From: Bacteroidota bacterium
Lineage (GTDB): Bacteria; Bacteroidota; Bacteroidia; B-17B0; Aurantibacillaceae
Length of the DNA: 64,000 nt
Assembly: GCA_018267825.1 (NCBI GenBank)
Contig: JAFDXR010000008.1
Location: forward strand, 310,001-374,000
Direction: 5' to 3'
In this document: piece by piece, positions 3,572 through 52,637 of the stretch
Position numbering within the stretch: the stretch's first letter is position 1
How the letters are laid out: each line of letters opens with the position of its first letter
Notes under the pieces: model-generated
What the model was told of the DNA's origin: nothing
Database searches by the model: none
Seen by the model: the letters and a program-made list of their open reading frames with translations, nothing else
Made by a program: the position numbers and the translations under genes

Positions 3572-5651
3572 GCTCTTCTATTTTTTTGGGGATGGTAATT
3601 TTCACAAGCGTCCCGGTTTCTCCACGGTCGGGAAAAGCATCCTGTACTTCCACCAGTATATTGGTATTGTATAACTCGTTCATGATGCTGATCCGCTGTT
3701 CAATATTCTGCATGCCCACCGAGGCCTGTGCCTTCTGATTCCGTGTTTTTATCTCCTTTGATTTCCGGCGGCCAATGCCATTGTCGCGGATAATGACCTG
3801 CAGCGACTCATTGGTTTGTGTAAACGAAATGTCGAGTTGCCCGGGTTGATTGAGATAGCGTAATCCATGCCATACCGCATTTTCGATGTAAGGCTGGATC
3901 ATCATAGGTGGCAATTCAAACTCAGAGCCGTCAATTTCTTCATCCACATGGAATGTATAGTTAAACTTATCGCTGAAACGGGCGTGTTCCAGCTGGAGGT
4001 ACAGTTTCAGAATATCGATCTCTTCGGTGAGTGAGATCATATCGTGCTTGGAGCTATCCATCACAGAGCGCATGAGTCTCGAAAAATCGGAAAGGTATTT
4101 GTTTGCCGAGCGTTCATCGTTTTGTGAAATGTAATGGTTCACTGAATTCAGGGCATTGAAAATAAAATGCGGGTTCATCTGGCCGCGAAGTGATTTGATG
4201 GCCAGCAGCTGGTTCACCCGTCTTTTCTCCCGGGCATTGCGTAACATGTAATAACCGCCAAACAACATCAGCATAATAAATACGGCCATGGTTATAATAA
4301 TACTGTTCCGCACGGTGAGCTCATCCTGCCTGAGTTCTTTGTCCTGTTTCAAAATCTCGATCGACTTTTCGTCCAGCTGTCTTTCTTTTTCGAGGAGCTC
4401 TATACGTTGCTGATTCTTCCCGATATTATTGGATAAATTAATAGCGTCGTTCAGTTCACGGGTTCGCACCGCCTGTACGGAATCTTCCAGGGTTGCATAT
4501 TTCTGAAGGTAGCCAAGACCTTTGGCTGTTTGACCATTCCTGAAATAATCTTCGGCCAGGGTACGGTAGGCTTTGGCATTGTCTTCGAGCAGCTTGCTCT
4601 TTTCGAACAGGTCAGCACTTTGGTCTGTGGCCGCCAATGATGAAAACGACATGTTTGTGGTGCCGATATTTTTGTCGTAATACTCCGCTGCCTTATCGAG
4701 TTGGTTCGTGGCCAGGTATGCATTCCCGATTTGTGTATTCTGCTGCAATATGCCCTGTGTGTTGTTCTCGGATGTGTTGATTGCAATGTTGCTGTTCCGG
4801 AGTTCCACTTCCTTATTTACTTCTTTTTGCTTTCTGAAAACGGCAGCAAGCTTTTCATTGGTTGTAAGAAGCAACTCTTTATAATTGTTGGCGTTTGCAA
4901 GTGCCTGCGCCTGGTAGTAATAGTTAACGGCTTTCTGATCGTCGTTTTGCTTTCCGTAATAATCGCCGATCGCAAGGAGTGTTGCGGTTTCACCTTCGCC
5001 GTTCTTAGAGCTTTTCTCCAACATTAAAACCTCATTCAGCAGGTTAAATCCATCCTGTGTTTTCCCTTGTGCAAATTCAATGCTTGCCAGTACCCGTTTC
5101 GCTTCCAGTCTTTCGCGAAGGGCGATATCTCCAAAACGGGAATCCTCAAAACAAACCTGTATAGACGCGTTGGCATCAGAAACTGCACCGGTAGCAAGTT
5201 GCGACACGGCCATCTGCCTGTATGCTTTAAAAAGGGTTATGCCTCCCGAACCACCAGCCGGTCTTTGTATTGTCTTGCTTTTCTTTTGCACTGCCCTTGA
5301 AGAAAATGCAACGGTATTTATACACTTTTTGAAATTCTCAATGGCGAGTTCATCCTGTTTGAGTTGCTGCTGGATATTCCCCAGGATAAGATAAGCCAGG
5401 GCTTCGTTGCTGTTATCATTTTCTTTCAGACAAAGTCCGATAGCCTTATTCACCTGGTCGATGGCACGGAATGGTGCTTTTCCCGAAAGGTATTGTGCGG
5501 AGTCTAACAAAACCGTTACGGGTTTTACCTCCACGGTGCTAAGGCTACGAAAATCATAGTTGCGTTGCGCACTGGCTGCATGGCCACACAACAAAAACAG
5601 GGTTATCAGTCCTGTTTGCAATGACACAATTATATTCCGCCAGGCTTTCAT
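3564..5651 (-). CDS. TPR-containing sensor histidine kinase, LytS/YehU type
   Basis: A 695-residue inner-membrane kinase. A signal peptide (about 1-28, ending HAASAQ) is followed by a periplasmic TPR array (about 55-400), a short coiled coil, one membrane span (IIITMAVFIMLMLFGGYYML, about 450-470) and a cytoplasmic His_kinase domain with MNPHFIFNALNSVNHYIS, where the His is the presumed phosphate acceptor. The HATPase has its N box at NAVWHGL and its G box at DNGIGR. This architecture (TPR, one span, LytS-type kinase) is common in Bacteroidota. The partner is the LytTR regulator at 2819, overlapping by 8 bp. The gene is divergent from the VWA gene at 5873 and shares a 220-bp intergenic region containing the repeat operator at 5752. 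Confidence 0.93.
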   Translation of the reverse strand: MKAWRNIIVSLQTGLITLFLLCGHAASAQRNYDFRSLSTVEVKPVTVLLDSAQYLSGKAPFRAIDQVNKAIGLCLKENDNSNEALAYLILGNIQQQLKQDELAIENFKKCINTVAFSSRAVQKKSKTIQRPAGGSGGITLFKAYRQMAVSQLATGAVSDANASIQVCFEDSRFGDIALRERLEAKRVLASIEFAQGKTQDGFNLLNEVLMLEKSSKNGEGETATLLAIGDYYGKQNDDQKAVNYYYQAQALANANNYKELLLTTNEKLAAVFRKQKEVNKEVELRNSNIAINTSENNTQGILQQNTQIGNAYLATNQLDKAAEYYDKNIGTTNMSFSSLAATDQSADLFEKSKLLEDNAKAYRTLAEDYFRNGQTAKGLGYLQKYATLEDSVQAVRTRELNDAINLSNNIGKNQQRIELLEKERQLDEKSIEILKQDKELRQDELTVRNSIIITMAVFIMLMLFGGYYMLRNAREKRRVNQLLAIKSLRGQMNPHFIFNALNSVNHYISQNDERSANKYLSDFSRLMRSVMDSSKHDMISLTEEIDILKLYLQLEHARFSDKFNYTFHVDEEIDGSEFELPPMMIQPYIENAVWHGLRYLNQPGQLDISFTQTNESLQVIIRDNGIGRRKSKEIKTRNQKAQASVGMQNIEQRISIMNELYNTNILVEVQDAFPDRGETGTLVKITIPKKIEEHA

Positions 5652-5751
5652 GTTTATGTAAACTTAGTAAGGATTGTTCAGATAATAAAATTAATTTTTG
5701 CCAGATATGGCCGTAAACACTGGGGTTTTAGCCCTTTTACAGGAACCTGTA

Positions 5752-5786
5752 TCCGTTTCACCAAGCCAGGTGTCCGTTTCACTAAG
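5752..5786 (+). promoter_or_regulatory. Twin TCCGTTTCAC repeats, probable LytTR operator
   Basis: TCCGTTTCAC occurs at 5752-5761 and again at 5773-5782, a perfect 10-bp direct repeat with a 21-bp period, followed by CAAG and TAAG respectively. TAGCTTTA (5816-5823), one base from TAnnTTTG, starts 29 nt after the second repeat, and the VWA gene ATG is at 5873. The site sits between the divergent kinase operon and the VWA gene, so it could serve either. Assignment to the adjacent LytTR regulator is inferred from geometry and position. Confidence 0.62.
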
Positions 5787-5872
5787 TGCTGATTTTTGTT
5801 GTATGATCCCTCGACTAGCTTTACATCAGAATCCTGTAAAATCCGTATTCCATAACACTTAAATCCTTTAAC

Positions 5873-7093
5873 ATGAAACCTTATTCAACCTGGCGATCCG
5901 CCACCGCCTATCTTACACTCACATCCATGGTGTGCATGGCCTGCACCTTTAATCCACAGGCAAGAGCCAACACCGAAGCCAATGCCCCTGCTGAAATACA
6001 GCATACGGTTCAGGCAACGCATACAACCACAGCCGGCACTTTGAAAATTGGTAAGCGTAAAATAAAAATCGCCTTATTGCTCGATACCAGTAACAGTATG
6101 GATGGGCTCATTGATCAGGCCAAAGCACAACTCTGGAAACTGGTAAATGAACTCGCTCTGGCAAAATGCGGCGATGAAAGGCCTATGCTCGAAATAGCTC
6201 TTTATGAATACGGAAACAGCGGGCTGCCAATGAATGAAGGGTACATTCGCCAGGTGGCCATGTTTACCGATGACCTGGACCTGATCTCCGAAAAACTATT
6301 CTCGCTGACAACCAATGGTGGCGATGAATTCTGCGGGCAGGTCATCCAATCGGCCACCACGCAGCTCGACTGGACGGGTGATGATAATGACCTGCGCCTC
6401 ATTTTCATTGCAGGAAATGAACCGTTCACACAGGGCTCGGTGAATTATGCAGGGTCCTGCAAAACAGCCAAACAAAAAGATATCGTGGTCAATACCATTT
6501 ATTGCGGTAGTTTTGACGAAGGACTCAGTAGTGGCTGGAAAAACGGAGCCCTGCTTACCGACGGAAGTTACATGAGCATTGAGCAGGATCGAAAAACCGA
6601 ATACATTGAAACTCCCTACGACCAGGAAATTGCCAAACTGAACGATAAACTTAATGACACCTACGTAAGCTATGGCGCCGAGGGATACAGCAAAAAACAA
6701 AACCAGGTGACACAGGATGCCAATGCTTCTTCTTATGGCATTTCGAATACCACATCGCGCGTGGCTTCCAAAGCCTCTGCATTTTATTCCAATGCTTCAT
6801 GGGACCTGGTAGATGCATCGCGTGAAAAAGATTTTGATGTTGCCAAAATGAAAGAGTCCGAATTACCGAAAGAAATACAGGGAAAAAACAAAGCTGAAAA
6901 AGAAGCGTTTATTCAGCAAAAAAGCAAGGAGCGCGAAGATGTGAGATCGCAAATCCTCGCCCTGAATAAAAAACGCATGGAATACATTGCAGAAAAACAA
7001 AAAGCATCGGGCGATACAAACTCCCTGGACGCAGCCATGATCAAGGCCATTAAGGAACAAGCCGCACGTAAGAATTTCACCTTTCAAAGCTAA
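5873..7093 (+). CDS. VWA domain-containing envelope protein
   Basis: A 406-residue exported protein. The hydrophobic N-terminus (about 8-24) ends in VCMAC, which may be a lipobox. A von Willebrand A domain starts near residue 63 with the MIDAS motif DTSNSMD (Asp71, Ser73, Ser75), so it probably binds a divalent metal. The C-terminal third is rich in Lys/Glu and predicted helical (about 330-406). VWA proteins of this kind act in envelope complexes, but the partner cannot be told from sequence. The SIMPL gene starts 6 bp after its stop, so the two are co-transcribed. The upstream twin repeats suggest control by the neighbouring two-component system. Confidence 0.85.
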   Translation: MKPYSTWRSATAYLTLTSMVCMACTFNPQARANTEANAPAEIQHTVQATHTTTAGTLKIGKRKIKIALLLDTSNSMDGLIDQAKAQLWKLVNELALAKCGDERPMLEIALYEYGNSGLPMNEGYIRQVAMFTDDLDLISEKLFSLTTNGGDEFCGQVIQSATTQLDWTGDDNDLRLIFIAGNEPFTQGSVNYAGSCKTAKQKDIVVNTIYCGSFDEGLSSGWKNGALLTDGSYMSIEQDRKTEYIETPYDQEIAKLNDKLNDTYVSYGAEGYSKKQNQVTQDANASSYGISNTTSRVASKASAFYSNASWDLVDASREKDFDVAKMKESELPKEIQGKNKAEKEAFIQQKSKEREDVRSQILALNKKRMEYIAEKQKASGDTNSLDAAMIKAIKEQAARKNFTFQS

Positions 7094-7098
7094 ACACC

Positions 7099-7815
7099 AT
7101 GAGAATATCAGCTTTAATAGCAATCCCTCTGTTTCTTTTGTTTTCCTCTCGAAACCATTCTGCAACAGGGTCATCCGAAAACGAGCATACTATTTCTGTG
7201 ACCGGCAGTTCTGAAATGTCGGTCGTGCCTGACGAGGTTGAACTTACGATTAGTATACGCGAGTATTTTGAGGAGGAGTATATTCCGGGAAAAAGGATTG
7301 AAGACTATAAAACAAAAGTGCCGTTGCGGAACATTGAATCTGAATTCTATAAACACCTGGAATCTATCGGCTATTCCAAAAAAGATCTGACACTCCTTGG
7401 AGCGGGGGATTTCTGGCGGAACGCAGGCCTGCCGGTCCAATTCAGTAAGCAATTCAGTATTTGCGTACCGGGACTGGAACAGATCGAGAAACTCGTTCAG
7501 GCCCTCGACATGCGGGGCGTTGAATCGGTATCGATACGGCAACTGAAAAATAAAAAACTGACTGCGCTTCGCAAACAGGTCAAGATACAGGCCCTTGAGA
7601 TGGCTAAAGAAAAAGCTGCATACCTGCTCGAAAGCCAGGGTCATAAAGCCGGCAGTCTTGTATCTATTCGTGAAGTAAACAACGACAATGGATTTTCATA
7701 CAGCTATTCGACTTCCAATATGCTTAGCAACAGTGTCAGCTTTAGTGATAACAAAAGCGGATTGCAAAGCATCAGCATACGCTATGAAATTGAAGTGAGT
7801 TATCTGATAGACTAA
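7099..7815 (+). CDS. SIMPL domain (DUF541) exported protein
   Basis: A 238-residue protein with an N-terminal signal sequence (about 1-22) and a SIMPL/DUF541 domain beginning ISVTGSSEMSVVPDEVELTI. That opening, where a 'VTGSGE' phrase is followed by a V-x-P-D-x-A/V strand, typifies the family. SIMPL proteins are periplasmic or envelope-associated, with roles in stress tolerance known for a few members only. It follows the VWA gene by 6 bp and ends before a strong hairpin terminator at 7834, so the unit is VWA-SIMPL. A specific function is not assigned. Confidence 0.85.
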   Translation: MRISALIAIPLFLLFSSRNHSATGSSENEHTISVTGSSEMSVVPDEVELTISIREYFEEEYIPGKRIEDYKTKVPLRNIESEFYKHLESIGYSKKDLTLLGAGDFWRNAGLPVQFSKQFSICVPGLEQIEKLVQALDMRGVESVSIRQLKNKKLTALRKQVKIQALEMAKEKAAYLLESQGHKAGSLVSIREVNNDNGFSYSYSTSNMLSNSVSFSDNKSGLQSISIRYEIEVSYLID

Positions 7816-7833
7816 CTACGTATTTTCCGTATT

Positions 7834-7868
7834 AAAAAGAGGTGCCCGAGCAGACTCCTCTTTTTTTT
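7834..7868 (+). terminator. Rho-independent terminator after the SIMPL gene
   Basis: AAAAAGAGG (7834-7842) pairs with CCTCTTTTT (from 7857) across a 14-nt loop, and the run of T continues to 7868. It lies 19 bp after the stop at 7815. Confidence 0.85.
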
Positions 7869-8066
7869 GACCACATCCGCCTCAAAAAACCATTTAACAA
7901 ATTATGGCATTTTTATCTCACAAACCCGGGTTACCCATCGCTACGTATGGTATAAATACAAAACGATCGTTACATCAGAAGTTCTACCCGGAGGCTGGCC
8001 TGTAACAGGCCTGGGACTTAACACACACGGCATGCCACCTGCTGTTGTAAAAAAATCATTAAACGT

Positions 8067-9653
8067 ATGAAAACTGCCAACCTGCTGGCTACGCTTGCCG
8101 TAGCTCTCCTGATCGTATCATGTGGTCCATCGGGTGAACAAATGAAAGCCAAAGAAGATGCTATCAATACAACCACCGCCGACATGGCCCCTCCTGTTCT
8201 GGAAACCCCTCCTCTCGCCACAGGAACCGAGTCCTACAACACCATCAGCGAAAACACCTTTAAATCTGTTTCTGCCGAACCTCTTTCCACATTTGCCATC
8301 GACGTCGACGGTGCTTCCTATAGCAATGTACGCCGCATGCTTATCAATGGTATGCTCCCGCCCGCCGACGCCGTTCGCGCAGAAGAGTTCATCAACTACT
8401 TTACTTACAATTATCCTAAACCCGAACAAAACGAACTATTCAGCTTATATAGTGAATATGCCAACTGTCCATGGGCAGCTAATCATAAGCTGTTGCAGGT
8501 TGCATTAAAAGGAAAAGAGGTTGATATGAAAAGTGCGCCTGCCAACAACCTGGTTTTCCTGGTGGATGTGAGTGGCTCGATGGAGAACGAAAACAAACTG
8601 CCTTTGTTGAAACGCGCATTCAAGTTGCTCATCAAACAACTCCGCCCTGAAGATCGTGTATCGATTGTAGTATATGCAGGAAATGCGGGCCTGGTACTCG
8701 ATGGGGCCAATGGTGATGAATCCGACGATATCCTGGAGGCCCTCGACAGACTACAGGCAGGTGGCTCTACTGCCGGAGGTGAAGGCATTGAGCTTGCATA
8801 TGCCGTAGCAAAAAATCACTTCATTAAAAAAGGAAACAACCGCATTATCCTTACCACCGACGGTGATTTCAATGTGGGCATGTCGAGCCAGCAGGAACTT
8901 GAAAAACTGATCGAAGAAAAAAGAAACGACGGTATTTACCTTTCTGTATTTGGCTTTGGCGACGGAAACATCAAGGACAATGTGATGGAAACCCTGGCAG
9001 ATAAAGGAAACGGGAATTACTATTATATCGATAATTTTATGGAAGCACGGAAAGTACTGGTTTCGCAATTTGGTGGCACACTCATGACCATTGCCAAGGA
9101 TGTGAAAATACAGATCGAGTTCAATCCGGCTTATGTAAAGGAATACCGCCTTATTGGCTATGAAAACCGCTTGCTGAACGCCGAGGACTTTAACGATGAT
9201 AAAAAAGATGCCGGTGAATTGGGTTCCGGACATTGCGTGACGGCGCTGTATGAAATTATTCCTGCAGGCAGTAGTGAAAGTAAAGCCAACGTCGACAACC
9301 TGAAATATGCAAAATCCGGAGATAATACCAATAAAGGCGAATTAGCAAGCATTAAGTTTCGTTACAAAGGAGTTGCCAGACAAGACACAACCTCAAAGCT
9401 GCTTAGTAAAACAATCAGCACAATCATTATCCCCGACGAACAGCGTTCAGCGAATTTCAAACTGGCGGCCAGTGCCGCGGAGTTTGCGATGCTGCTCCGC
9501 GACAGCAAATACCGCGACCGCGCCTCTTATGACCAGGCCATTGAACTGGCTGGTGGTGCCCGGGAGCGTGATGAAGAAGGCTATGTAAGCGGCTTAATCG
9601 ATCTGCTGAAAATCGCCAAAGACCTACAGGAAAAGCCAATTGCCAAAAAATAA
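8067..9653 (+). CDS. YfbK-like VWA lipoprotein (VWF_A N-terminal, VWA, DUF3520)
   Basis: A 528-residue lipoprotein: the signal peptide ends LLIVSC with Cys19. An N-terminal YfbK-type region (about 60-150, with FAIDVDGASYSNVRRML and RAEEFINYFTYNYP) is followed by a VWA domain whose MIDAS is DVSGSM and whose later Asp is in TTDGDFNVG. The C-terminal DUF3520 region runs from about 340 to 525. The order and length match the Bacteroidota/proteobacterial YfbK family, whose function is not well defined. A separate transcription unit: it follows the terminator at 7834 and precedes one at 9656. The stretch 7869-8066 holds no supported gene. Confidence 0.92.
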   Translation: MKTANLLATLAVALLIVSCGPSGEQMKAKEDAINTTTADMAPPVLETPPLATGTESYNTISENTFKSVSAEPLSTFAIDVDGASYSNVRRMLINGMLPPADAVRAEEFINYFTYNYPKPEQNELFSLYSEYANCPWAANHKLLQVALKGKEVDMKSAPANNLVFLVDVSGSMENENKLPLLKRAFKLLIKQLRPEDRVSIVVYAGNAGLVLDGANGDESDDILEALDRLQAGGSTAGGEGIELAYAVAKNHFIKKGNNRIILTTDGDFNVGMSSQQELEKLIEEKRNDGIYLSVFGFGDGNIKDNVMETLADKGNGNYYYIDNFMEARKVLVSQFGGTLMTIAKDVKIQIEFNPAYVKEYRLIGYENRLLNAEDFNDDKKDAGELGSGHCVTALYEIIPAGSSESKANVDNLKYAKSGDNTNKGELASIKFRYKGVARQDTTSKLLSKTISTIIIPDEQRSANFKLAASAAEFAMLLRDSKYRDRASYDQAIELAGGARERDEEGYVSGLIDLLKIAKDLQEKPIAKK

Positions 9654-9655
9654 AA

Positions 9656-9680
9656 GAAAGGGCCCTTCGGGGCCTTTTTT
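9656..9680 (+). terminator. Rho-independent terminator after the YfbK-like gene
   Basis: A GC-rich stem AAGGGCCC / GGGGCCTT with a TTCG tetraloop is followed by six T, starting 3 bp after the stop codon at 9653. Confidence 0.9.
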
Positions 9681-9759
9681 CATGTAGCGCGAAGATTCAT
9701 TTTCTCGTTTTTGACGCTTCCTGAAACAAACAGAATTGTTTTTGTAAATTGCGATGTAA

Positions 9760-10968
9760 ATGAGCAAAGCAAAATCCAGGTCATTCATCACACGCATGGT
9801 CACTCACCTGGCCTTCTGGGTATTGCTGGCTATTGTGGCCGGAATTCTACTCGGGCATTGCTGGCCGGAAACGGCCGTGAAAATGGAAAAGGTAGGAACC
9901 GGCTTTGTGAATATCATCAAGATATTTATTGCTCCCATTATTTTTTTCACGATCGTCTCAGGCATCAGCGGCATGGGCAACCTCAAAAAGGTAGGACGTA
10001 TCGGCGTAAAATCGCTGTTATATTTTGAAGTTGTAACAACCCTTGCTCTCGTGATTGGTATTGCTGTTGGTTACATGGTTGAACCGGGACGTATCGACAA
10101 AAGCAGTCTCCCCATCCAGGATGCCAGCAAGTACACAAAATCTCCGGAGCATTTTGAATGGCTCAGTTTTTTCAAATCAAACCTGACCTTGCAGATTCTT
10201 GTCATTGCAATCATCATTGGCATCGGGTTGAATTTTTACAAAAAACGGGAACGCGCTCTTTACTGGATCAACAAAGGTTCACACCTTGTATTCACCCTCT
10301 TGAAATATGTGATGTACCTGGCTCCTGTTGGTGCTTTCGGAGGCATGGCATTCATCGTTGGGAAATATGGCCTGCATACTCTATTCCCTTTAGCCAAACT
10401 AATGGGTACCGTGTATCTCACCATGTTCGTATTTATCTTTTTTATACTCGGTGGCATTCTTCGCTATTATAAAATCAGCATCCTGCATTTTCTCAGGCAT
10501 ATCAAAGAAGAACTTCTCATTGTGCTTGGTACTTCGTCGTCAGAGGCTGCATTGCCTTCACTGATGCAGAAGCTTGAAAAAATGGGCTGCAGTAAATCGG
10601 TGGTCGGCCTGGTTATCCCGACGGGTTATTCATTCAATCTCGATGGCACTTCTATTTACCTGTCGATGGCCATCATTTTTTTAGCGCAATTGTACAATGT
10701 ACATTTAAGTGCCGGGGAAATCATGAGCATCATCGGCATTCTGATGGTCACCTCCAAAGGGGCGGCCGGTGTGACTGGCAGCGGATTCATCATTCTGGCT
10801 TCCACGCTCACGGCTATTCATAAAATTCCGGTTGATGGCCTGGCTTTTTTACTGGGCGTAGATAAATTCATGAGCGAGGCCCGTGCCATTACCAATATTA
10901 TAGGAAACGGCGTAGCGACTATTGTGATCTCAAAAAGTGAAAATGAATTTGTAGATCCGGATCAATAA
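9760..10968 (+). CDS. dctA: C4-dicarboxylate:cation symporter DctA
   Basis: A 402-residue inner-membrane transporter of the DAACS family. The diagnostic blocks are GTSSSEAALPSLMQKLEK (serine-rich re-entrant loop HP1), VIPTGYSFNLDGTSIYL (broken transmembrane helix with the Na+/substrate site) and SKGAAGVTGSGFIILA (HP2), near-identical in layout to E. coli DctA; the C-terminal FMSEARAITNIIGNGVATIV also matches. It should import succinate, fumarate or malate. It is slightly shorter than the usual about 428 residues, mainly at the C-terminus. The start at 9760 gives a short cytoplasmic N-terminus before helix 1. It is convergent with the aquaporin gene. Confidence 0.92.
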   Translation: MSKAKSRSFITRMVTHLAFWVLLAIVAGILLGHCWPETAVKMEKVGTGFVNIIKIFIAPIIFFTIVSGISGMGNLKKVGRIGVKSLLYFEVVTTLALVIGIAVGYMVEPGRIDKSSLPIQDASKYTKSPEHFEWLSFFKSNLTLQILVIAIIIGIGLNFYKKRERALYWINKGSHLVFTLLKYVMYLAPVGAFGGMAFIVGKYGLHTLFPLAKLMGTVYLTMFVFIFFILGGILRYYKISILHFLRHIKEELLIVLGTSSSEAALPSLMQKLEKMGCSKSVVGLVIPTGYSFNLDGTSIYLSMAIIFLAQLYNVHLSAGEIMSIIGILMVTSKGAAGVTGSGFIILASTLTAIHKIPVDGLAFLLGVDKFMSEARAITNIIGNGVATIVISKSENEFVDPDQ

Positions 10969-10983
10969 AACGTGTTTCTACGT

Positions 10984-11631
10984 TTATTTCTTCAGAACTT
11001 TCCATGCACCCATAGCCAGAACAGCTCCCAGGACAGGCGCCAGTATATAAATCCAGAGATGATCCGGATGCCCTGATACAAGCGCCGGAGCTATGGACCG
11101 AGCCGGGTTCATGGATGCCCCGCAAACAGGACCGGCAAACATAGCCTCCAGCAGAACCACAGAACCTATAGCCAATCCGGCAAACATGCCCTGCTCCTTG
11201 CTGCCTTTTGCGACATGAACAATTACAAACATGAGGATAAAGGAAAGGATAAACTCGAGTACAAACGATTGTATGCCAGAGCCTGCAGGAACCGTGGCTC
11301 CCAGGGTGGCATTTGCAGGGAACAATATCAGCAACACCAGACTGGCCATAACTGCCCCGATAAGTTGACTGAATATATACGGAAAAACTTCCCGACCCGG
11401 AAACAATCGTCCGGCCCAGAAAGCGATGGTTACAGCAGGATTCAGGTGTGCTCCCGAAATGTCGCCAAGACTGTAGATCATGGCCGATACAATGAGTCCG
11501 AAAGTAATGGAAATACCAATATGCCCGACTGCGCCCCCTGTGTAATCATTAATAACGATTGCGCCGGTGCCGCAAAACACAAGTGCAAATGTGCCAATGA
11601 ACTCTGCCAGGTAGCTTTTTACATTCATCAT
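10984..11631 (-). CDS. Aquaporin (MIP family) of the ars-type operon
   Basis: A 215-residue, six-helix channel with both NPA boxes: GAHLNPAVTIAF (NPA 64-66) and GASMNPARSIAPAL (NPA 175-177, with the selectivity-filter Arg178). It is the last gene of an operon whose order is arsR, DUF6428, ArsC-like phosphatase, aquaporin; its ATG is 2 bp from the preceding stop. No ArsB, Acr3 or ArsA gene is present here. In Sinorhizobium meliloti the ars-operon aquaporin AqpS lets arsenite leave the cell down its gradient; that role is likely here but inferred from context. A general water or glycerol channel is the alternative. Confidence 0.9.
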   Translation of the reverse strand: MMNVKSYLAEFIGTFALVFCGTGAIVINDYTGGAVGHIGISITFGLIVSAMIYSLGDISGAHLNPAVTIAFWAGRLFPGREVFPYIFSQLIGAVMASLVLLILFPANATLGATVPAGSGIQSFVLEFILSFILMFVIVHVAKGSKEQGMFAGLAIGSVVLLEAMFAGPVCGASMNPARSIAPALVSGHPDHLWIYILAPVLGAVLAMGAWKVLKK

Positions 11632-47132: not shown

Positions 47133-47495
47133 ATGAAAAAGAAAGAAACAGTTGCCCTGGACAGCACCTGCAGCAAAGAGCTGATGGCAGCCACCGACAC
47201 CCTGACTATCCTCAATGGTAAATGGAAAATTCAGATCATTGCCACTTTAAATTACAGCGGGCCTCTGCGCTTTATGGATCTGCAACGCCTTATTAAAGGC
47301 ATCGGTTCCAAAATGTTGTCGCGCGAGTTGCAGGACCTTGAAACAAACCTGCTCGTGAAAAGAACCGTGCTGAATACAAGGCCCATGACCGTAGAATATG
47401 AACTAAGCCCGCATGGCAAGTCGCTCGAACGTATTATAAATAGCATGCGCCTCTGGGGCAAGGCACATCGCAAAAAAATTGCTGCCCGAAATTAA
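47133..47495 (+). CDS. HxlR-family transcriptional regulator
   Basis: A 120-residue winged-helix regulator. LNGKWKIQIIATLNYSGPLRF is the family start and LSRELQDLETNLLVKRTV is the recognition-helix region. An N-terminal Cys (STCSKE) is in the position used for redox sensing by some relatives. The start is ATG 47133; an upstream extension to 47079 is unlikely. It is 10 bp upstream of the SRPBCC gene and should control it. It diverges from the thioredoxin gene. Confidence 0.87.
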   Translation: MKKKETVALDSTCSKELMAATDTLTILNGKWKIQIIATLNYSGPLRFMDLQRLIKGIGSKMLSRELQDLETNLLVKRTVLNTRPMTVEYELSPHGKSLERIINSMRLWGKAHRKKIAARN

Positions 47496-47505
47496 ATCCA
47501 GACAC

Positions 47506-47925
47506 ATGGCACAGCATAAAGCAGATCTTATTATTCAGGCATCGCCGCAACAGGTGTTTACCGCACTCACACAGCCCGACCTGGTGCAGCGCTGGCAATA
47601 CAACAAACAGCTTATGACCGACTGGACACCCGGCTCCGGTATCAGGTTCCGGGCCTGGTTCAACAATACCCTGCTCGAACAGTGGGGCACTGTGCTGGAA
47701 TACCGCCCGGGCGAGTGTATAAAATATACCTTGTTTACCCCGAAGCCCGGGCTGCAGGATGTTCCTGAAAACTACCATACCACCACTTATACACTCCATG
47801 CAGAAGGCAAGGGCACCCGTGTAGAACTGACCCAGGAAGATGAAGGTATAAACACTTTTGTACCTGTGAGCCTGATACCCATACTGGCGCAACTGAAAAA
47901 AACAGTGGAAGAGGGCTTAGCATAG
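47506..47925 (+). CDS. SRPBCC (AHSA1-type) domain protein
   Basis: A 139-residue protein of the START/Bet v1-like superfamily: ADLIIQASPQQVFTALTQPDLVQRW at the start (cited in part: QASPQQVFTALTQP) and an Hsp90-activator-type helix near the end. Such proteins bind small hydrophobic ligands. Co-transcribed with the HxlR regulator 10 bp upstream. The stop is followed at once by the repeat array at 47926. Confidence 0.85.
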   Translation: MAQHKADLIIQASPQQVFTALTQPDLVQRWQYNKQLMTDWTPGSGIRFRAWFNNTLLEQWGTVLEYRPGECIKYTLFTPKPGLQDVPENYHTTTYTLHAEGKGTRVELTQEDEGINTFVPVSLIPILAQLKKTVEEGLA

Positions 47926-48000
47926 GTGCCTGTTACTTTTTTCGTCAAGGAAAAAGTATAGGATAACTCCTTTATAAGACCAGGGTAAGGAATAGCTCGG

Positions 48001-48187
48001 GTGGTTCTGCAATACATCTTGTGAGGTGCGGCTGATCCGGCGAAACGGTGCGGGTTGCCATTTTTTCGGCGAGCTGCGCGTTTGGCTCGTGCGAGAAAAA
48101 GATGGAAACCGGCGTTTCGCCTTGACTTTGTGTCGGCATCAAAGCTTTAGCATAGGTGCCTGTTACTTTTTCGTCAAGGAAAAAGTA
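48001..48187. repeat. Hairpin repeat, copy A
   Basis: The outer stem is GGCGAAACG (48039-48047) with CGTTTCGCC (48113-48121). The inner part (GGGTTGCCATTTTTTC against GAAAAAGATGGAAACC) continues it with few mismatches. The unit ends in the palindrome TTACTTTTTCGTCAAGGAAA (first 20 bases). Nearly identical to copy B. Confidence 0.85.
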
Positions 48188-48256
48188 AAGGATAACCTTT
48201 TTCTTTTGTCTTGAAACAAAAGAAACAAAAATTCAAGGCTCTATACCTTTTTTCTA

Positions 48257-48352
48257 AAATTCTGCCTTTCTCAACCTGATGATTTGAAGCGCTTCGCGAG
48301 CTGCGCAAATCATCTCCTCACAAACCAGCGCCTTTTGAGAAAGACCGAATTT
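48257..48352. repeat. Second type of large hairpin element
   Basis: AAATTCTGCCTTTCTCAA (48257-48274) pairs with TTGAGAAAGACCGAATTT (48335-48352) with two mismatched positions. Inside it GATGATTTG (48278-48286) pairs with CAAATCATC (48306-48314). A small hairpin TTCTTTTGT-CTTGAA-ACAAAAGAA lies before it at 48201-48224. Confidence 0.75.
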
Positions 48353-48464
48353 CTTTACGAAAAAATGTATAAGGCCGGGGTGAAGAATACTAAAAGATAT
48401 TTTCACTCTTTATTGTGTTACAAGCCACAAAGCATTGCTGAAACATCAAAGTGAAATACCTCCG

Positions 48465-48649
48465 GTGGTTCTACAATACATCTTGTGAGGTGCGGCTGAT
48501 CCGGCGAAACGGTGCGGGTTGCCATTTTTTCGGCGAGCTGCGCGTTTGGCTCGTGCGAGAAAAAGATGGGAACCGGCGTTTCGCCTTGACTTTGCCTCGG
48601 CACCAAAGCTTTAGCATAGGTGCCTGTTACTTTTTCGTCAAGGAAAAAG
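48465..48649. repeat. Hairpin repeat, copy B
   Basis: Same architecture as copy A with few differences; the outer stem is GGCGAAACG (48503-48511) and CGTTTCGCC (48577-48585). A minus-strand frame across it is repeat-derived, not a gene. Confidence 0.85.
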
Positions 48650-48766
48650 CAAATAATAAAGCCGGAGTCCAGAATACCCCCTGTGTTTGCACAATACATC
48701 TTGTGAGCTACGACCGGCACAGCAAAACAGCGCCGCTTACCACTTTCGCCAAGGAAAAAAGTAAAA

Positions 48767-49582
48767 CTATTCCCCGGTACTCTGTTTCAAAAACCGAATC
48801 AGCAGCACCAGGCTCCATGCGGCCAGCACACCCATAAGGCCTGTAAGCACCAGGCTGCTTTCAATTCCCCGGTATTTCATGACCACTGCCAGCGCGCCAA
48901 TGGTCAGATCCATGAGCACAAAAAACATCAGCAGTGCCGGTGCCAGCACCTGGCCCCATTCCGATTTCCGGAGAAGTAACATGGCGGTCAGGAAAACTCC
49001 CGGCAGAAAAATGCCCAGATCAAGCACCTGCACACCATTGGTAAACAATCCCGCCCCGGCCACACTCTTCGGTATGTTGTGATGCAGCAGAGCCGGAACA
49101 ACTTCCATAAGCCAGAGTATGTAAAAAAACACGGAAACAACCATGAAATAAACAGCCGTTACACGAAACACGCCCTTATTTGTGTGCCCGGGCGACACCG
49201 TGTAGCGACGGACTGTAAAAAGAAAATAAAGTGCCGCATAAAACGACAGGCCAAGGCCCGTGCAATATACCCAGAACAAACTGTTGAAATGCACCTGAAA
49301 ACAATAGAGCACCAGGGTGTAACAGAGGTAAAAAACAACGCCGCCCCACATGAGGCGTGCAGCCCGGTGATGGCGGGCCGCAGCGATGGCTGTAACAAGC
49401 AGGCAAGGTACAACCAGGCAGACGTCGATCAGATCCTGCCCCAGCGATTGGGCCTGCCAGTTGGGTGTTTCTGCTGCATAGAAGCCCGGGCTCAGCAAAC
49501 CGGCCAAACCGGCCAGGCTCACCAGCAGTGCCAATGGCAGCGAGAGCGCTAAAATGGTTTTATCGATCCGGGTCATGGGCAT
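48767..49582 (-). CDS. Hypothetical seven- to eight-span membrane protein
   Basis: A 271-residue, very hydrophobic protein with about seven or eight spans and short loops, a helical N-terminus (LALSLPLALLVSLAGLAGLL) and a basic C-terminus. No family recognised; transporter-like motifs are not visible. Converges with the SRPBCC gene across the repeat array. Its promoter lies next to the non-coding region starting at 49583. Confidence 0.68.
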   Translation of the reverse strand: MPMTRIDKTILALSLPLALLVSLAGLAGLLSPGFYAAETPNWQAQSLGQDLIDVCLVVPCLLVTAIAAARHHRAARLMWGGVVFYLCYTLVLYCFQVHFNSLFWVYCTGLGLSFYAALYFLFTVRRYTVSPGHTNKGVFRVTAVYFMVVSVFFYILWLMEVVPALLHHNIPKSVAGAGLFTNGVQVLDLGIFLPGVFLTAMLLLRKSEWGQVLAPALLMFFVLMDLTIGALAVVMKYRGIESSLVLTGLMGVLAAWSLVLLIRFLKQSTGE

Positions 49583-50766
49583 TGGGTTTTTACTTTATAC
49601 GCTTTTGATAAATCCGCTTCAAAAATCCATCTTTCCCTGGGTAATATGCATGACCTATGTCACACCGCGGTTTGATCCTGCTCAATATTGCCCGCTGCTC
49701 ATAAGCCCCGATACCGAAGCTTGTTTCAGGGCGCTTTATCTTTTAAATACTCCGTATAGTAAATTATAACCGGGGTTCCTGTAAAATGACGCCGGTACGA
49801 TGCTCTTCGATACGCGACCGGACAAAAATAACAGAGCTCCGGTTTTGTATTATAAAGGTTCAGACAGCACTCCTTTTTATTCGATCTCTGTGCTCTCCCC
49901 ATCGGTCGTTTGTTCATTGTGTCAGATGCCCTGTAAGGGCCGTTGGATTTTCACACTCCTTTGTCAGATTTTCACGACCTCCCGTTCGGGCCTTTGCATA
50001 TCAATACCTGTATACCATCATTGCCGTCTGATCTTCGTGTACCAGCCTCCGGTCTTGTATGGATCTTGTCCGTACAAAGATAATTGCCGTTCGGACCATT
50101 GATATTTTATGTCGATCAGAGTACTTTTTCGTTTCATTCGTCATCGCTTTCGTACGATCACTTATGTATACCGTCTGATCTTTTGTTCTTAAGGTCCGGA
50201 CAAAAACATCAGCCGTTTAAACAAAAATCACAGGCGTCTGAGCCGGCTTTAAAAGCAGCGGTCATGTGTTATACCCGTCCGATCTGCACGCATTTTGTTG
50301 CGATTCTCCGGCACTGCCGTTCGACCCTTGTGTGCTTTTGTCTGAACCTTATCGTTTCAGGGCCTGAGTGGCTTTGTTTCAGGGGCCTCCGTGCCTGTTC
50401 AGGAACACCAGACCCTGTATTTATATTGCTCTGTTTGTATGATGGCCGGTGCTTCTGCCGGGTGCTCATTGTGCTGTCGTATTACTATGCGTTTAAGTAA
50501 AATAATAAGCCTTATTTTTTGCCGCAAAGCTCATATATTCTTAGTGAATTAATCCTCTGTATATGTAAAATAAGGCTTTACCTATTAAAAGGTCTTCGCC
50601 GGCTACCGTTTCCGACAACGCGGCAGTCGCTGAAATAGCGTGATTTCCGGAGGACACATTAGTAATTTTGATAATATTCCGACAATTATACCCAGGCCCG
50701 GTACTTTGGCATACGGCATCGTAATTGTGGTTTTTCCGGCTGTATTAACTTTTTAAAAAAAGATCT
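49583..50766. other. Non-coding region with scattered short imperfect repeats
   Basis: 1,184 bp without a supported gene. Short motifs recur out of order: CCGGACAAAAAnAnCAG (49818-49834 and 50196-50212), CTCCGGTTTTGTAT (49837-49850) with CTCCGGTCTTGTAT (50047-50060), CCGTCTGATCTT (50024-50035 and 50171-50182), and CCGTTCGgrCC at about 49982, 50088 and 50317. Frames that appear open here have no plausible product. Confidence 0.55.
50507..50578. other. 12-bp inverted repeat with 48-bp loop
   Basis: AAGCCTTATTTT (50507-50518) and AAAATAAGGCTT (50567-50578) are perfect complements. They close the non-coding region about 190 bp before the gene at 50767. No function can be assigned. Confidence 0.6.
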
Positions 50767-51387
50767 ATGAAACCAAAATCAAAGGCCAACATGGGGATCT
50801 CGAATTTGACCCCAGGCGGCAAAGCAATCAAAGCACAGGCCATTATCGATGCCATGCAGGCCAGTGGCAATTTTCCGGCTGCCAACATGCCCATTTCCTA
50901 TCCGGCCCTGCAGGCCCTCATTACCAATCTGCACAATGCCATTGTGCAGGCCGACAACGGCAATAGCGCCGACACCAGCGACATGCACGAGCAGGAACGT
51001 GTACTGGTGATGGCCTTTAACCTGGTAAAGGCACATGTCGAAATGGTGAGTAACACCTTTACCAATCCCGATACGGTAATTCTCTCGGCGGGTATGTCTG
51101 TGGCGGCAGGCAACGGACAGGGAGCCATTACCGATCTTACGCTCGACGCCATAGGCAACGGCACCGTGCGCATTCGTGTGCCACGCAGTCCCGAAAACAA
51201 ATCGTTTTTGTACCAGTATGCCCTGGCCAGCGATCCCACCAACTGGCAAAACATCGGCTACAGCACCCTGAGCAGAATGGATCTGAAAAACCAAAACCCC
51301 GGTGTACAGCTGCTGGTGCGCTATGCGGCCATTAGCAAACAAGGCATCAGTGAGTTTAGCAGCCCTAAGCAGATTATGGTAATCTAA
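50767..51387 (+). CDS. Hypothetical protein, fibronectin-like C-terminus
   Basis: A 206-residue protein without signal peptide. The N-terminal half is helical (about 20-110) and the C-terminal half (about 115-206; TVRIRVPRSPENKSFLYQYAL, then GVQLLVRYAAISKQG) has the strand pattern of a fibronectin type III domain. Similar-looking small proteins are common in Bacteroidota, but no function is known to me. GC-richer than the gene that follows. Confidence 0.65.
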   Translation: MKPKSKANMGISNLTPGGKAIKAQAIIDAMQASGNFPAANMPISYPALQALITNLHNAIVQADNGNSADTSDMHEQERVLVMAFNLVKAHVEMVSNTFTNPDTVILSAGMSVAAGNGQGAITDLTLDAIGNGTVRIRVPRSPENKSFLYQYALASDPTNWQNIGYSTLSRMDLKNQNPGVQLLVRYAAISKQGISEFSSPKQIMVI

Positions 51388-51407
51388 ACGCCATGCGCTT
51401 CAACCTC

Positions 51408-51441
51408 AAAACCCCTGCCCGAACATGTGGCGGGGTTTTTT
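51408..51441 (+). terminator. Rho-independent terminator
   Basis: AAAACCCCTGCC pairs with GGCGGGGTTTTTT (one bulge) after the stop at 51387. Confidence 0.88.
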
Positions 51442-51520
51442 ATATACGGGAAAATTACGGAGCAAAAACAGGTATTTATACGGGTTGACATTAGGACCAA
51501 TAGCTTCTATTTTAGCTATT

Positions 51521-52396
51521 ATGGAAGATTTTACATCACAACCCACAAACCTGGAGAATGCACAAAACGATGAGAAGTTCGTATCAAAACCCAAAGACCC
51601 TTATATAATACTCGAAATACGGCTGAGGAAAAAGGCATTAGCATTTAACTTAAGCGGTGGATTTGTTGCCATCATTGCCATTGCTATTCTACTATTGTTT
51701 GTTACTAAAACCATGAAGGCGCAGTCTATTGTTCCTTCTAAAAGCTCTACTCCACAAGATAACGAAGTAATAAACGTGTTGCGACGCTATTTAATTAGTG
51801 CCCCAAATAACAAAATGTTTCTACGAGTATTTGATACGGGAGATACAGGACTTACCGGCGGATTCAAGGAATTAACATTTTCGTATGCGTCCACCCCAAA
51901 TTCAATTCCATTTCGAGCAAATAAATTACTAGGCCTACTTAATGCTGTAAATACTGCTGCTACTTTACCAGAACAAACGGAACGAACCCCTCCGTTAGAT
52001 AATGTAGTATATTTTCAATTAAAGAAATTAATCGAAATAGATCAAAAACTTCATGATGATTTATTAGTGCAAGTAAAGAAGAAAGATGATAAGATTTCAG
52101 GTCCAAGTTATGCTTCTAAACTATTAATGATTCTTCTTGCGCTTGTATTCTTAGCACTTGCCCGTTATTTTCTTCAAACAGCTAAATATTACAATGCCCG
52201 AGCAGATGCCCTCTCGCTGCTCAAAGATAAAGAGCTCACCGTCGAAGAAGCGCTGGCAATTACTGCACCTCCTCCTGTCGACTTCCGCCTTTCGAAAAAG
52301 ATTCAGAACGAAATGCTGGAGCTTTTCAAAATTAAAGCCGAAGCACAAAAACCCGTTTGCTGCTGCCCTTGTAAGAATTGCAGACCCTGCTGTTAG
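51521..52396 (+). CDS. Hypothetical two-span membrane protein with Cys-rich tail
   Basis: A 291-residue protein: a cytoplasmic N-terminus, a span at about 45-62 (FVAIIAIAILLLFV), a long middle domain (to about 190), a second span at about 200-216 (LLMILLALVFLALARYF) and a cytoplasmic C-terminus ending in a cysteine cluster (PVCCCPCKNCRPCC; eight Cys in the last fourteen residues). The cluster could bind metal or be palmitoyl-like modified; neither is proven. The start at ATG 51521 is preferred over 51425. The middle part is visibly AT-richer than both neighbours, which suggests acquisition by transfer. Confidence 0.68.
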   Translation: MEDFTSQPTNLENAQNDEKFVSKPKDPYIILEIRLRKKALAFNLSGGFVAIIAIAILLLFVTKTMKAQSIVPSKSSTPQDNEVINVLRRYLISAPNNKMFLRVFDTGDTGLTGGFKELTFSYASTPNSIPFRANKLLGLLNAVNTAATLPEQTERTPPLDNVVYFQLKKLIEIDQKLHDDLLVQVKKKDDKISGPSYASKLLMILLALVFLALARYFLQTAKYYNARADALSLLKDKELTVEEALAITAPPPVDFRLSKKIQNEMLELFKIKAEAQKPVCCCPCKNCRPCC

Positions 52397-52495
52397 AGAG
52401 ATCCCAAAAACGATTAGAACAGGCTTCTCGGCCAGCGTGTCGCTAAAGCTGTAGCGATAGTACAAACTCGAAAAGTCAGCGCTTCTTTTTGCGCT

Positions 52496-52637
52496 TTGTG
52501 AGGTGCGGCTGACATGAACGAACGGTGAGAACCGCCATTTTTTCTGAGGCATTTGCGCAGATTGGCGCGTGAGAAAAAGATGGGGGTTGGCGTTCGTTCT
52601 TGACTTTTTGTTACTTTTTCGTCAGGGAAAAAGTAAA
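52496..52637. repeat. Hairpin repeat, copy C (diverged)
   Basis: Same layout as copies A and B, but the outer stem is GAACGAACG (52516-52524) with CGTTCGTTC (52591-52599). The inner AACCGCCATTTTTTC pairs with GAAAAAGATGGGGGTT, and the unit ends in TTACTTTTTCGTCAGGGAAA. It lies between the convergent genes at 51521 and 52652. Confidence 0.8.

Follow-up and report, generated by a model that had tools for sequence, protein, structure and literature searches.

A dispersed hairpin family with a crossing inverted-repeat tail in Bacteroidota and its possible mobility as folded DNA

Short extragenic hairpins that occur in many copies per genome, cluster in tandem and inverted arrangements and carry no gene of their own are familiar from the repetitive extragenic palindromic (REP) sequences and bacterial interspersed mosaic elements (BIMEs) that go with REP-associated tyrosine transposases (RAYT). 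The enterobacterial repetitive intergenic consensus (ERIC) sequences and the long palindromic miniature inverted-repeat transposable elements (MITEs) of Proteobacteria are intergenic imperfect palindromes with compensatory changes. Among the MITEs of Bacteroidota, BrickBuilt of Porphyromonas gingivalis is non-autonomous and dispersed, with long stem-loops, and carries 23-nt repeats in tandem and terminal inverted repeats of the IS5 type (PMC4596501). We describe here a repeat family that shares these general traits, found in a 64,000-nucleotide stretch of a Bacteroidota bacterium of the Aurantibacillaceae (assembly GCA_018267825.1, contig JAFDXR010000008.1, positions 310,001 to 374,000 of the forward strand; this whole stretch is called the window, and its positions are used below). 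The element consists of a hypervariable hairpin, made of an outer stem (P1) and inner stems, followed by a 38-nt tail. The family is phylum-wide, and both crossing helices of the tail and the apical stem of the hairpin covary. Its right boundary is sharp, copies turn up in unrelated surroundings, and the element is missing from one orthologous site. We give a probability of about one half to its being a dispersed non-autonomous mobile DNA element whose recognition site is a folded strand.

The tail is the most informative feature, and the terminal TTACTTTTTC palindrome described in an initial annotation of the window forms part of it. Behind the 3' arm of P1, which S1a directly adjoins, the order is S1a (CTTGAN), L1 (YTTTTG), S2a (10 nt), S1b (NTCAAG) and S2b (10 nt), with the consensus AGCCTTGAnTTTTTGnTTCTTTTnTATCAAGAnAAAAGAAn. 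Since S1b makes up the whole 6-nt loop of the 10-bp S2 hairpin, the inverted repeats S1 and S2 cross. Over 58 distinct tails, 98.7% of the cells are paired, against 85.0% after shuffling, and the covariation score reaches 0.327, against 0.069 for shuffled tails (0 of 500 shuffles reach the observed value) and 0.03-0.06 for slid controls, the rows being related sequences whose counts are not independent events. Seven pairs show changes on both sides. The last S1 pair (UA 28 times, AU 16, CG 12) and S2 pairs 1, 9 and 10 covary most, and these are positions left unconstrained on both sides in the pattern used to retrieve contigs. When the pattern specified just the 5' half of the tail, S1 is paired at 6 of 6 positions in 211 of 233 sequences and S2 at 9 or more of 10 in 220 of 233, much of this DNA having originally been fetched by a pattern that contained both arms. 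Because the linker between S1b and S2b is 0 nt long, S1 and S2 can hardly coexist in one strand, and a simultaneous H-type pseudoknot of the two is doubtful.

The three copies reported initially, at 48001, 48465 and 52496, are all present and have a common layout. Copies A and B share 95% identity across 205 bp, and copy C matches them at 74-76%, in blocks. The two arms of the outer stem were said to change together: 4 of 9 P1 pairs are indeed altered on both sides between A/B and C, all remaining Watson-Crick, and an inner helix is swapped, from GGTT/AACC in A and B to AACC/GGTT in C. Copy A (48019..48188, plus strand, as for B and C) opens with the head TTGTGAGGTGCGGCTG, followed by P1 at 48039-48047 (GGCGAAACG) and 48113-48121 (CGTTTCGCC), S1a (CTTGAC) at 48121-48126, a long L1 at 48127-48162 that contains a small GGCATC/GGTGCC hairpin, S2a at 48163-48172, S1b (GTCAAG) at 48173-48178 and S2b at 48179-48188. 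Copy B (48483..48652) has the same P1 arms at 48503-48511 and 48577-48585, S1a at 48585-48590, and S2 at 48627-48636 and 48643-48652 around S1b at 48637-48642. In copy C (52496..52636), P1 lies at 52516-52524 (GAACGAACG) and 52591-52599 (CGTTCGTTC), S1a (CTTGAC) at 52599-52604, L1 (TTTTTG) at 52605-52610, S2a at 52611-52620, S1b (GTCAGG) at 52621-52626 and S2b at 52627-52636. The end palindrome TTACTTTTTCGTCAAGGAAAAAGTAA thus covers 48163-48188, 48627-48652 and 52611-52636. Small hairpins of the GGCACC/GGTGCC type lengthen L1 in A, in B and in one other copy (L018), and all three keep S1 and S2 intact. Fold-energy z-scores are modest (A -1.5, B -2.6, C -3.1; -3.4 for a minus-strand copy D), so the case rests on covariation. 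Further copies lie on other contigs of the same genome, in which the 35-letter tail pattern matches five times and a reversed control pattern 0 times, so that the occurrence of the tail is not due to chance. Selection for structure, proposed from the three copies, is supported by copies in this genome and in relatives that keep pairing through different sequences; where unpaired copies would have spoken against it, the tail covaries strongly across the phylum.

The hairpin upstream of the tail varies more. P1 forms at least 9 of 12 ungapped pairs in 119 of 212 elements, against 35-56 of 211-226 at control offsets, and comes in several subtypes. That of A, B and C (GTGCGGCTG - P1 - GAACY ... 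RGTTGG - P1') recurs in other genomes with differing P1 arms (GGTAAAACG/TGTTTTACC, GCCGATTCG/CGAATCGGC, GGACGAACG/TGTTCGTCC and GGCAATTAG/CGAATTGCC), in relatives first picked up by sequence or tail and not by pairing. The commonest subtype starts with GGCC, ends with AGCC-TTGAN and keeps a C.A mismatch at the fourth pair of P1. Many of the hypervariable hairpins share the apex CTGTYTGAGCGNAGCGAGTT, and the hypervariable arms around it hold 9.07 Watson-Crick pairs of 10, against 4.90 when shuffled (maximum 5.62), a contrast somewhat flattered by picking the right-arm offset for best pairing and excluding arms with fewer than 7 pairs. Long-distance P1 partners, sought within 2.5 kb, showed no excess over chance beyond about 330 nt. 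At L018 (G000:C32:380266-380590) and L021 (G000:C28:167169) we saw a subtype with stems of the GATGATCGG/CCGATCATC type and compensatory differences between both copies. A second tail family, its crossing topology unchanged but its letters different (for example TTTCTT...TTTCTTTG-GAGAAG-CAAAGAAA), may follow similar hairpins; candidates lie at L062 (positions 2738 and 3310), at L174 (1267) and in loci of genome G015.

Allowing up to 3 mismatches, the 35-letter pattern finds the tail in 15 of 41 genomes (the source genome and relatives), with 0 control matches. As an exact pattern, it is present in 32 of 198 genomes of the phylum, with up to 22 copies per genome. Among the matches listed are Chryseobacterium, Flavobacterium, Pedobacter, Parabacteroides and others; they cover Flavobacteriaceae, Weeksellaceae-type genera, Sphingobacteriaceae, Chitinophagaceae, Saprospiraceae and Bacteroidales and, beyond those, Balneolaceae, Ignavibacteriales and one Marinimicrobia metagenome-assembled genome. 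Genera of the human gut and genera associated with animals are among the carriers. A few IMG/VR contigs have the tail as well, while a plasmid collection gave no match to the element and a phage collection only short partial ones. At gathering score, Rfam has no family in the window, and in the element loci only tRNA and Flavo-1 pass, neither of them on the element. No description of the element was found in the open-access literature, by topic or by sequence strings. The family spans Bacteroidota and neighbouring phyla and appears to be unnamed and uncatalogued. Draft genomes (G023) have near-identical copies at contig ends, so the repeat is a probable cause of assembly breaks.

Mobility is indicated by near-identical copies in unrelated surroundings and by an orthologous site without the spacer. 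In G015, the similarity of near-identical copies stops at the end of S2b and their right flanks are unrelated. In a Parabacteroides genome (G044:C27), an element separates two genes whose counterparts in G056 and G081 directly adjoin or overlap each other. As extragenic hairpins that are clustered and have many copies per genome, the elements behave as REP sequences do. P. faecalis has doubled tails, spaced 47 nt apart and arranged in several orders. Neighbouring sites tend to be co-oriented (48 versus about 14), and head-to-head pairs are common. Beyond 2 kb the orientation bias (18 versus 10, p 0.09) is not significant, and we do not retain the replication-coupled insertion that it might have suggested.

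If the element is mobile DNA, its structure would be selected in the folded, probably single-stranded state, because a recombinase or transposase that acts in trans would recognise it. The six loop bases of S2 are the complement of those at the 3' foot of P1 (S1); in this model S2 would be a hairpin bound by protein, its loop pairing with the core CTTGAN as a guide, and S1 pairing would probably be confined to a nucleoprotein complex or to an alternative state. Several observations, besides the relatedness of the covariation rows, weigh against this reading. The genomes with the empty site are about 75-78% identical, and the spacer that holds the element has roughly 50 extra bases besides it; no target-site duplication was demonstrated, as the divergence of the spacer-free site obscures the junction. 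In P1, the conserved mismatch of pair 4 (C.A) would read as G.T on the other strand, so that either strand may be the one that folds. In counts over the 41 genomes, none of the families Y1_Tnp, Y2_Tnp, RVT_1 and TnpB tracks the element. Y1_Tnp (RAYT) is absent from carriers G000, G023 (14 tails) and G033, its presence bears no relation to tail copy number, and no tail occurs in 93 kb around 30 Y1 loci. The Y2 domain of IS91 (PF04986) is found in 3 of 41 genomes, and among carriers only as a fragment, in G013. RVT_1 is lacking in carriers G030, G005, G022, G006 and G036, and TnpB (PF07282) in all 41 genomes. We accordingly rejected an IS91 or ISCR element (Y2 missing from most carriers), a derivative of retro-elements or group II introns (carriers without RVT_1) and an IS605/IS1341-type MITE (no TnpB). 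The initial remark that no transposase is linked also holds at 119 further loci, which have no common flanking mobility gene and share only widespread families as neighbours. As none of the four families is in all carriers, the mover would belong to another family, be a common host enzyme or have been lost from some carriers; none was identified among the families counted, tyrosine recombinases not having been searched.

Other readings of the same hairpins must be weighed. A REP-like element moved by a RAYT or IS200-type Y1 transposase acting on hairpins would account for the size, the extragenic position, the hairpins and the tandem and inverted clustering; moreover, CTTGAN resembles the ISDra2 cleavage sites TTGAT/TTGAC. 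The carriers that lack Y1_Tnp, the missing relation to copy number and the Y1 genes without a tail beside them make it very improbable. The element may instead act as RNA, be it as a structured 3' untranslated region, a small RNA or a terminator, with a hairpin that works once transcribed and a U-rich L1 that serves as terminator tract. This would fit the T-rich stretch after the hairpin, the likeness of S1/S2 to an RNA pseudoknot or kissing loop, the Flavo-1 sequence (a catalogued candidate small RNA) that adjoins one tail, and an upstream gene on the strand of the element in 62 of 94 cases, with convergent contexts commoner than divergent ones (++ 33, +- 29, -- 22, -+ 10). However, a terminator should nearly always follow a co-oriented gene, and 32 of 94 elements do not; arrays, doubled tails and head-to-head pairs are also unlike terminators, and Rfam has no match to the element. 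A, B and C do lie between convergent ORFs, as first noted, but over the many covarying copies yielded by searches that amount in effect to the proposed one, location at gene ends is a bias and not a rule: divergent (promoter) regions are avoided and a co-oriented upstream gene is unnecessary. G.U pairs, common in RNA helices generally, are nearly absent: on the element strand, a G.T wobble fills 1 cell in 270 at apical positions 2-7 and 38 in 3776 in the tail. C-G-closed GNA triloops are exceptionally stable as DNA; we counted 35 on the element strand and 16 on the opposite one, where about 9 were expected from the flanks, and no enrichment of GNRA tetraloops. The rarity of G.T, the triloops and the gene orientations speak for a palindrome that acts as DNA rather than for an RNA or a terminator, without proving it, and we regard action as RNA as rather unlikely. 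Hence, of the two families suggested initially, REP-like mobile DNA fits better and a terminator less well. Paired changes might even need no function, if template switching in the hairpin copies one arm onto the other by mutation. Correction of quasi-palindromes is established for replication and the arms are almost purely Watson-Crick, but drift and correction would erode the crossing repeats, the fixed spacing and the conserved apex and L1, which are kept from Parabacteroides to Ignavibacteriales, and make this account quite improbable.

An integron-like site is a further alternative, in which P1-CTTGAN-S2 would join mobile cassettes of the layout S2 - genes - P1, with a recombinase breaking and resealing folded single strands at CTTGAN. 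It is suggested by Parabacteroides. In G041, near-identical 79-nt elements, all pointing the same way, stand between three MNT-HEPN toxin-antitoxin pairs and an AAA-ATPase/PDDEXK_9 gene (L358, G041:C2:44000-63000, positions 5046-11365); the array also holds a 468-aa protein without Pfam match, and TAnnTTTG promoter-like sequences precede the MNT genes (L111). A DUF1016/YhcG gene lies between two elements in L153. One intergenic site is, depending on the species, empty or occupied by a hairpin element, by an MNT gene with or without HEPN (G071 and G058, respectively) or by a different MNT-HEPN pair (G057), these genes having been identified by eye from similarity to the Pfam-identified ones of L111; the site (L313, L314 and L318 versus L315 and L317) looks like an insertion hot spot. 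The co-orientation of neighbouring sites would also fit. Yet outside Parabacteroides the genes downstream of and between elements are mostly ordinary, and this is the one clear case of a direct-orientation cassette array, tandem copies or ordinary genes prevailing elsewhere. The orientation bias fades beyond 2 kb, tandem duplication accounts for close copies, head-to-head pairs are common, no tails occur at the G071 MNT-HEPN or G058 MNT insertions, and no integrase was identified, with the limit on tyrosine recombinases given above. We therefore judge an integron-like site unlikely, and the elements between toxin-antitoxin pairs are a lead, not an established case. An undescribed Bacteroidota system, in which MNT-HEPN-type genes would move between sites folded from single-stranded DNA and the S2 loop would guide to the CTTGAN core, is a similarly doubtful proposition; it would parallel integrons with different sites and a different enzyme.

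The window holds more members of the family than first observed, and these minus-strand, tail-only and deleted copies are, like the crossing pairing of the tail, additions to the earlier account. Copy D (48200..48376, minus strand) is of the GGCC type, with P1 GGCCTTATAC.../...GTATAGAGCC, the apex CTCGCGAAGCGC and the tail CTTGAATTTTTGTTTCTTTTGTTTCAAGACAAAAG at 48203-48237. A tail-only copy lies at 47917-47958 (plus strand), and repeat comparison revealed a degraded one at 48673..48765 (plus strand, 73% identity), with head and end fragment and the interior deleted. The end of the ORF at 47479-47925 (47917-47925, TTA GCA TAG, C-terminus GLA) is identical to the repeat-derived TTAGCATAG, and an element fragment seems to provide its last codons and stop. 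Apart from the family, the intergenic region of more than 1 kb between the ORFs at 48767-49582 and 50767-51387 (noted at 49780-50500) shows no convincing gene and contains repeated CCGGACAAAAA motifs.

If the element is mobile, an enzyme so far unsuspected would recognise folded DNA, and the family offers ready substrates for finding it. Flavo-1 (RF01705), also a candidate structured element of Bacteroidota, occurs in several of the scanned loci (L085, 3400-3483 and 4267-4350; L113, 3428-3515; L150, 6277-6439), one copy about 11 nt after a tail; it is a separate model of 76 positions without match to the element, and this 'RNA' may itself be a dispersed DNA repeat rather than a small RNA. With integron attC sites the family shares hypervariable imperfect hairpins with conserved ends and, in one Parabacteroides genome, the direct-orientation toxin-antitoxin cassettes of superintegron arrays, but its tail consensus lacks the integron core GTTRRRY and it is mostly solitary and dispersed. 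Unlike REP and BIME sequences, it has no linked or co-occurring Y1 transposase, and it has a crossing inverted-repeat tail, GGCC...GCC ends, hypervariable stems and a phylum-wide range. It shows neither the tandem repeats nor the terminal inverted repeats of BrickBuilt. To our knowledge, ERIC sequences have a narrower host range and no crossing-repeat tail. Overall, the element works like a mobile hairpin of the REP or MITE type, and lacks features that define RAYT-REP, IS605, IS91, integron attC or known RNA families. The architecture of its tail, a hairpin loop complementary to the bases just upstream, is unusual and covaries strongly.

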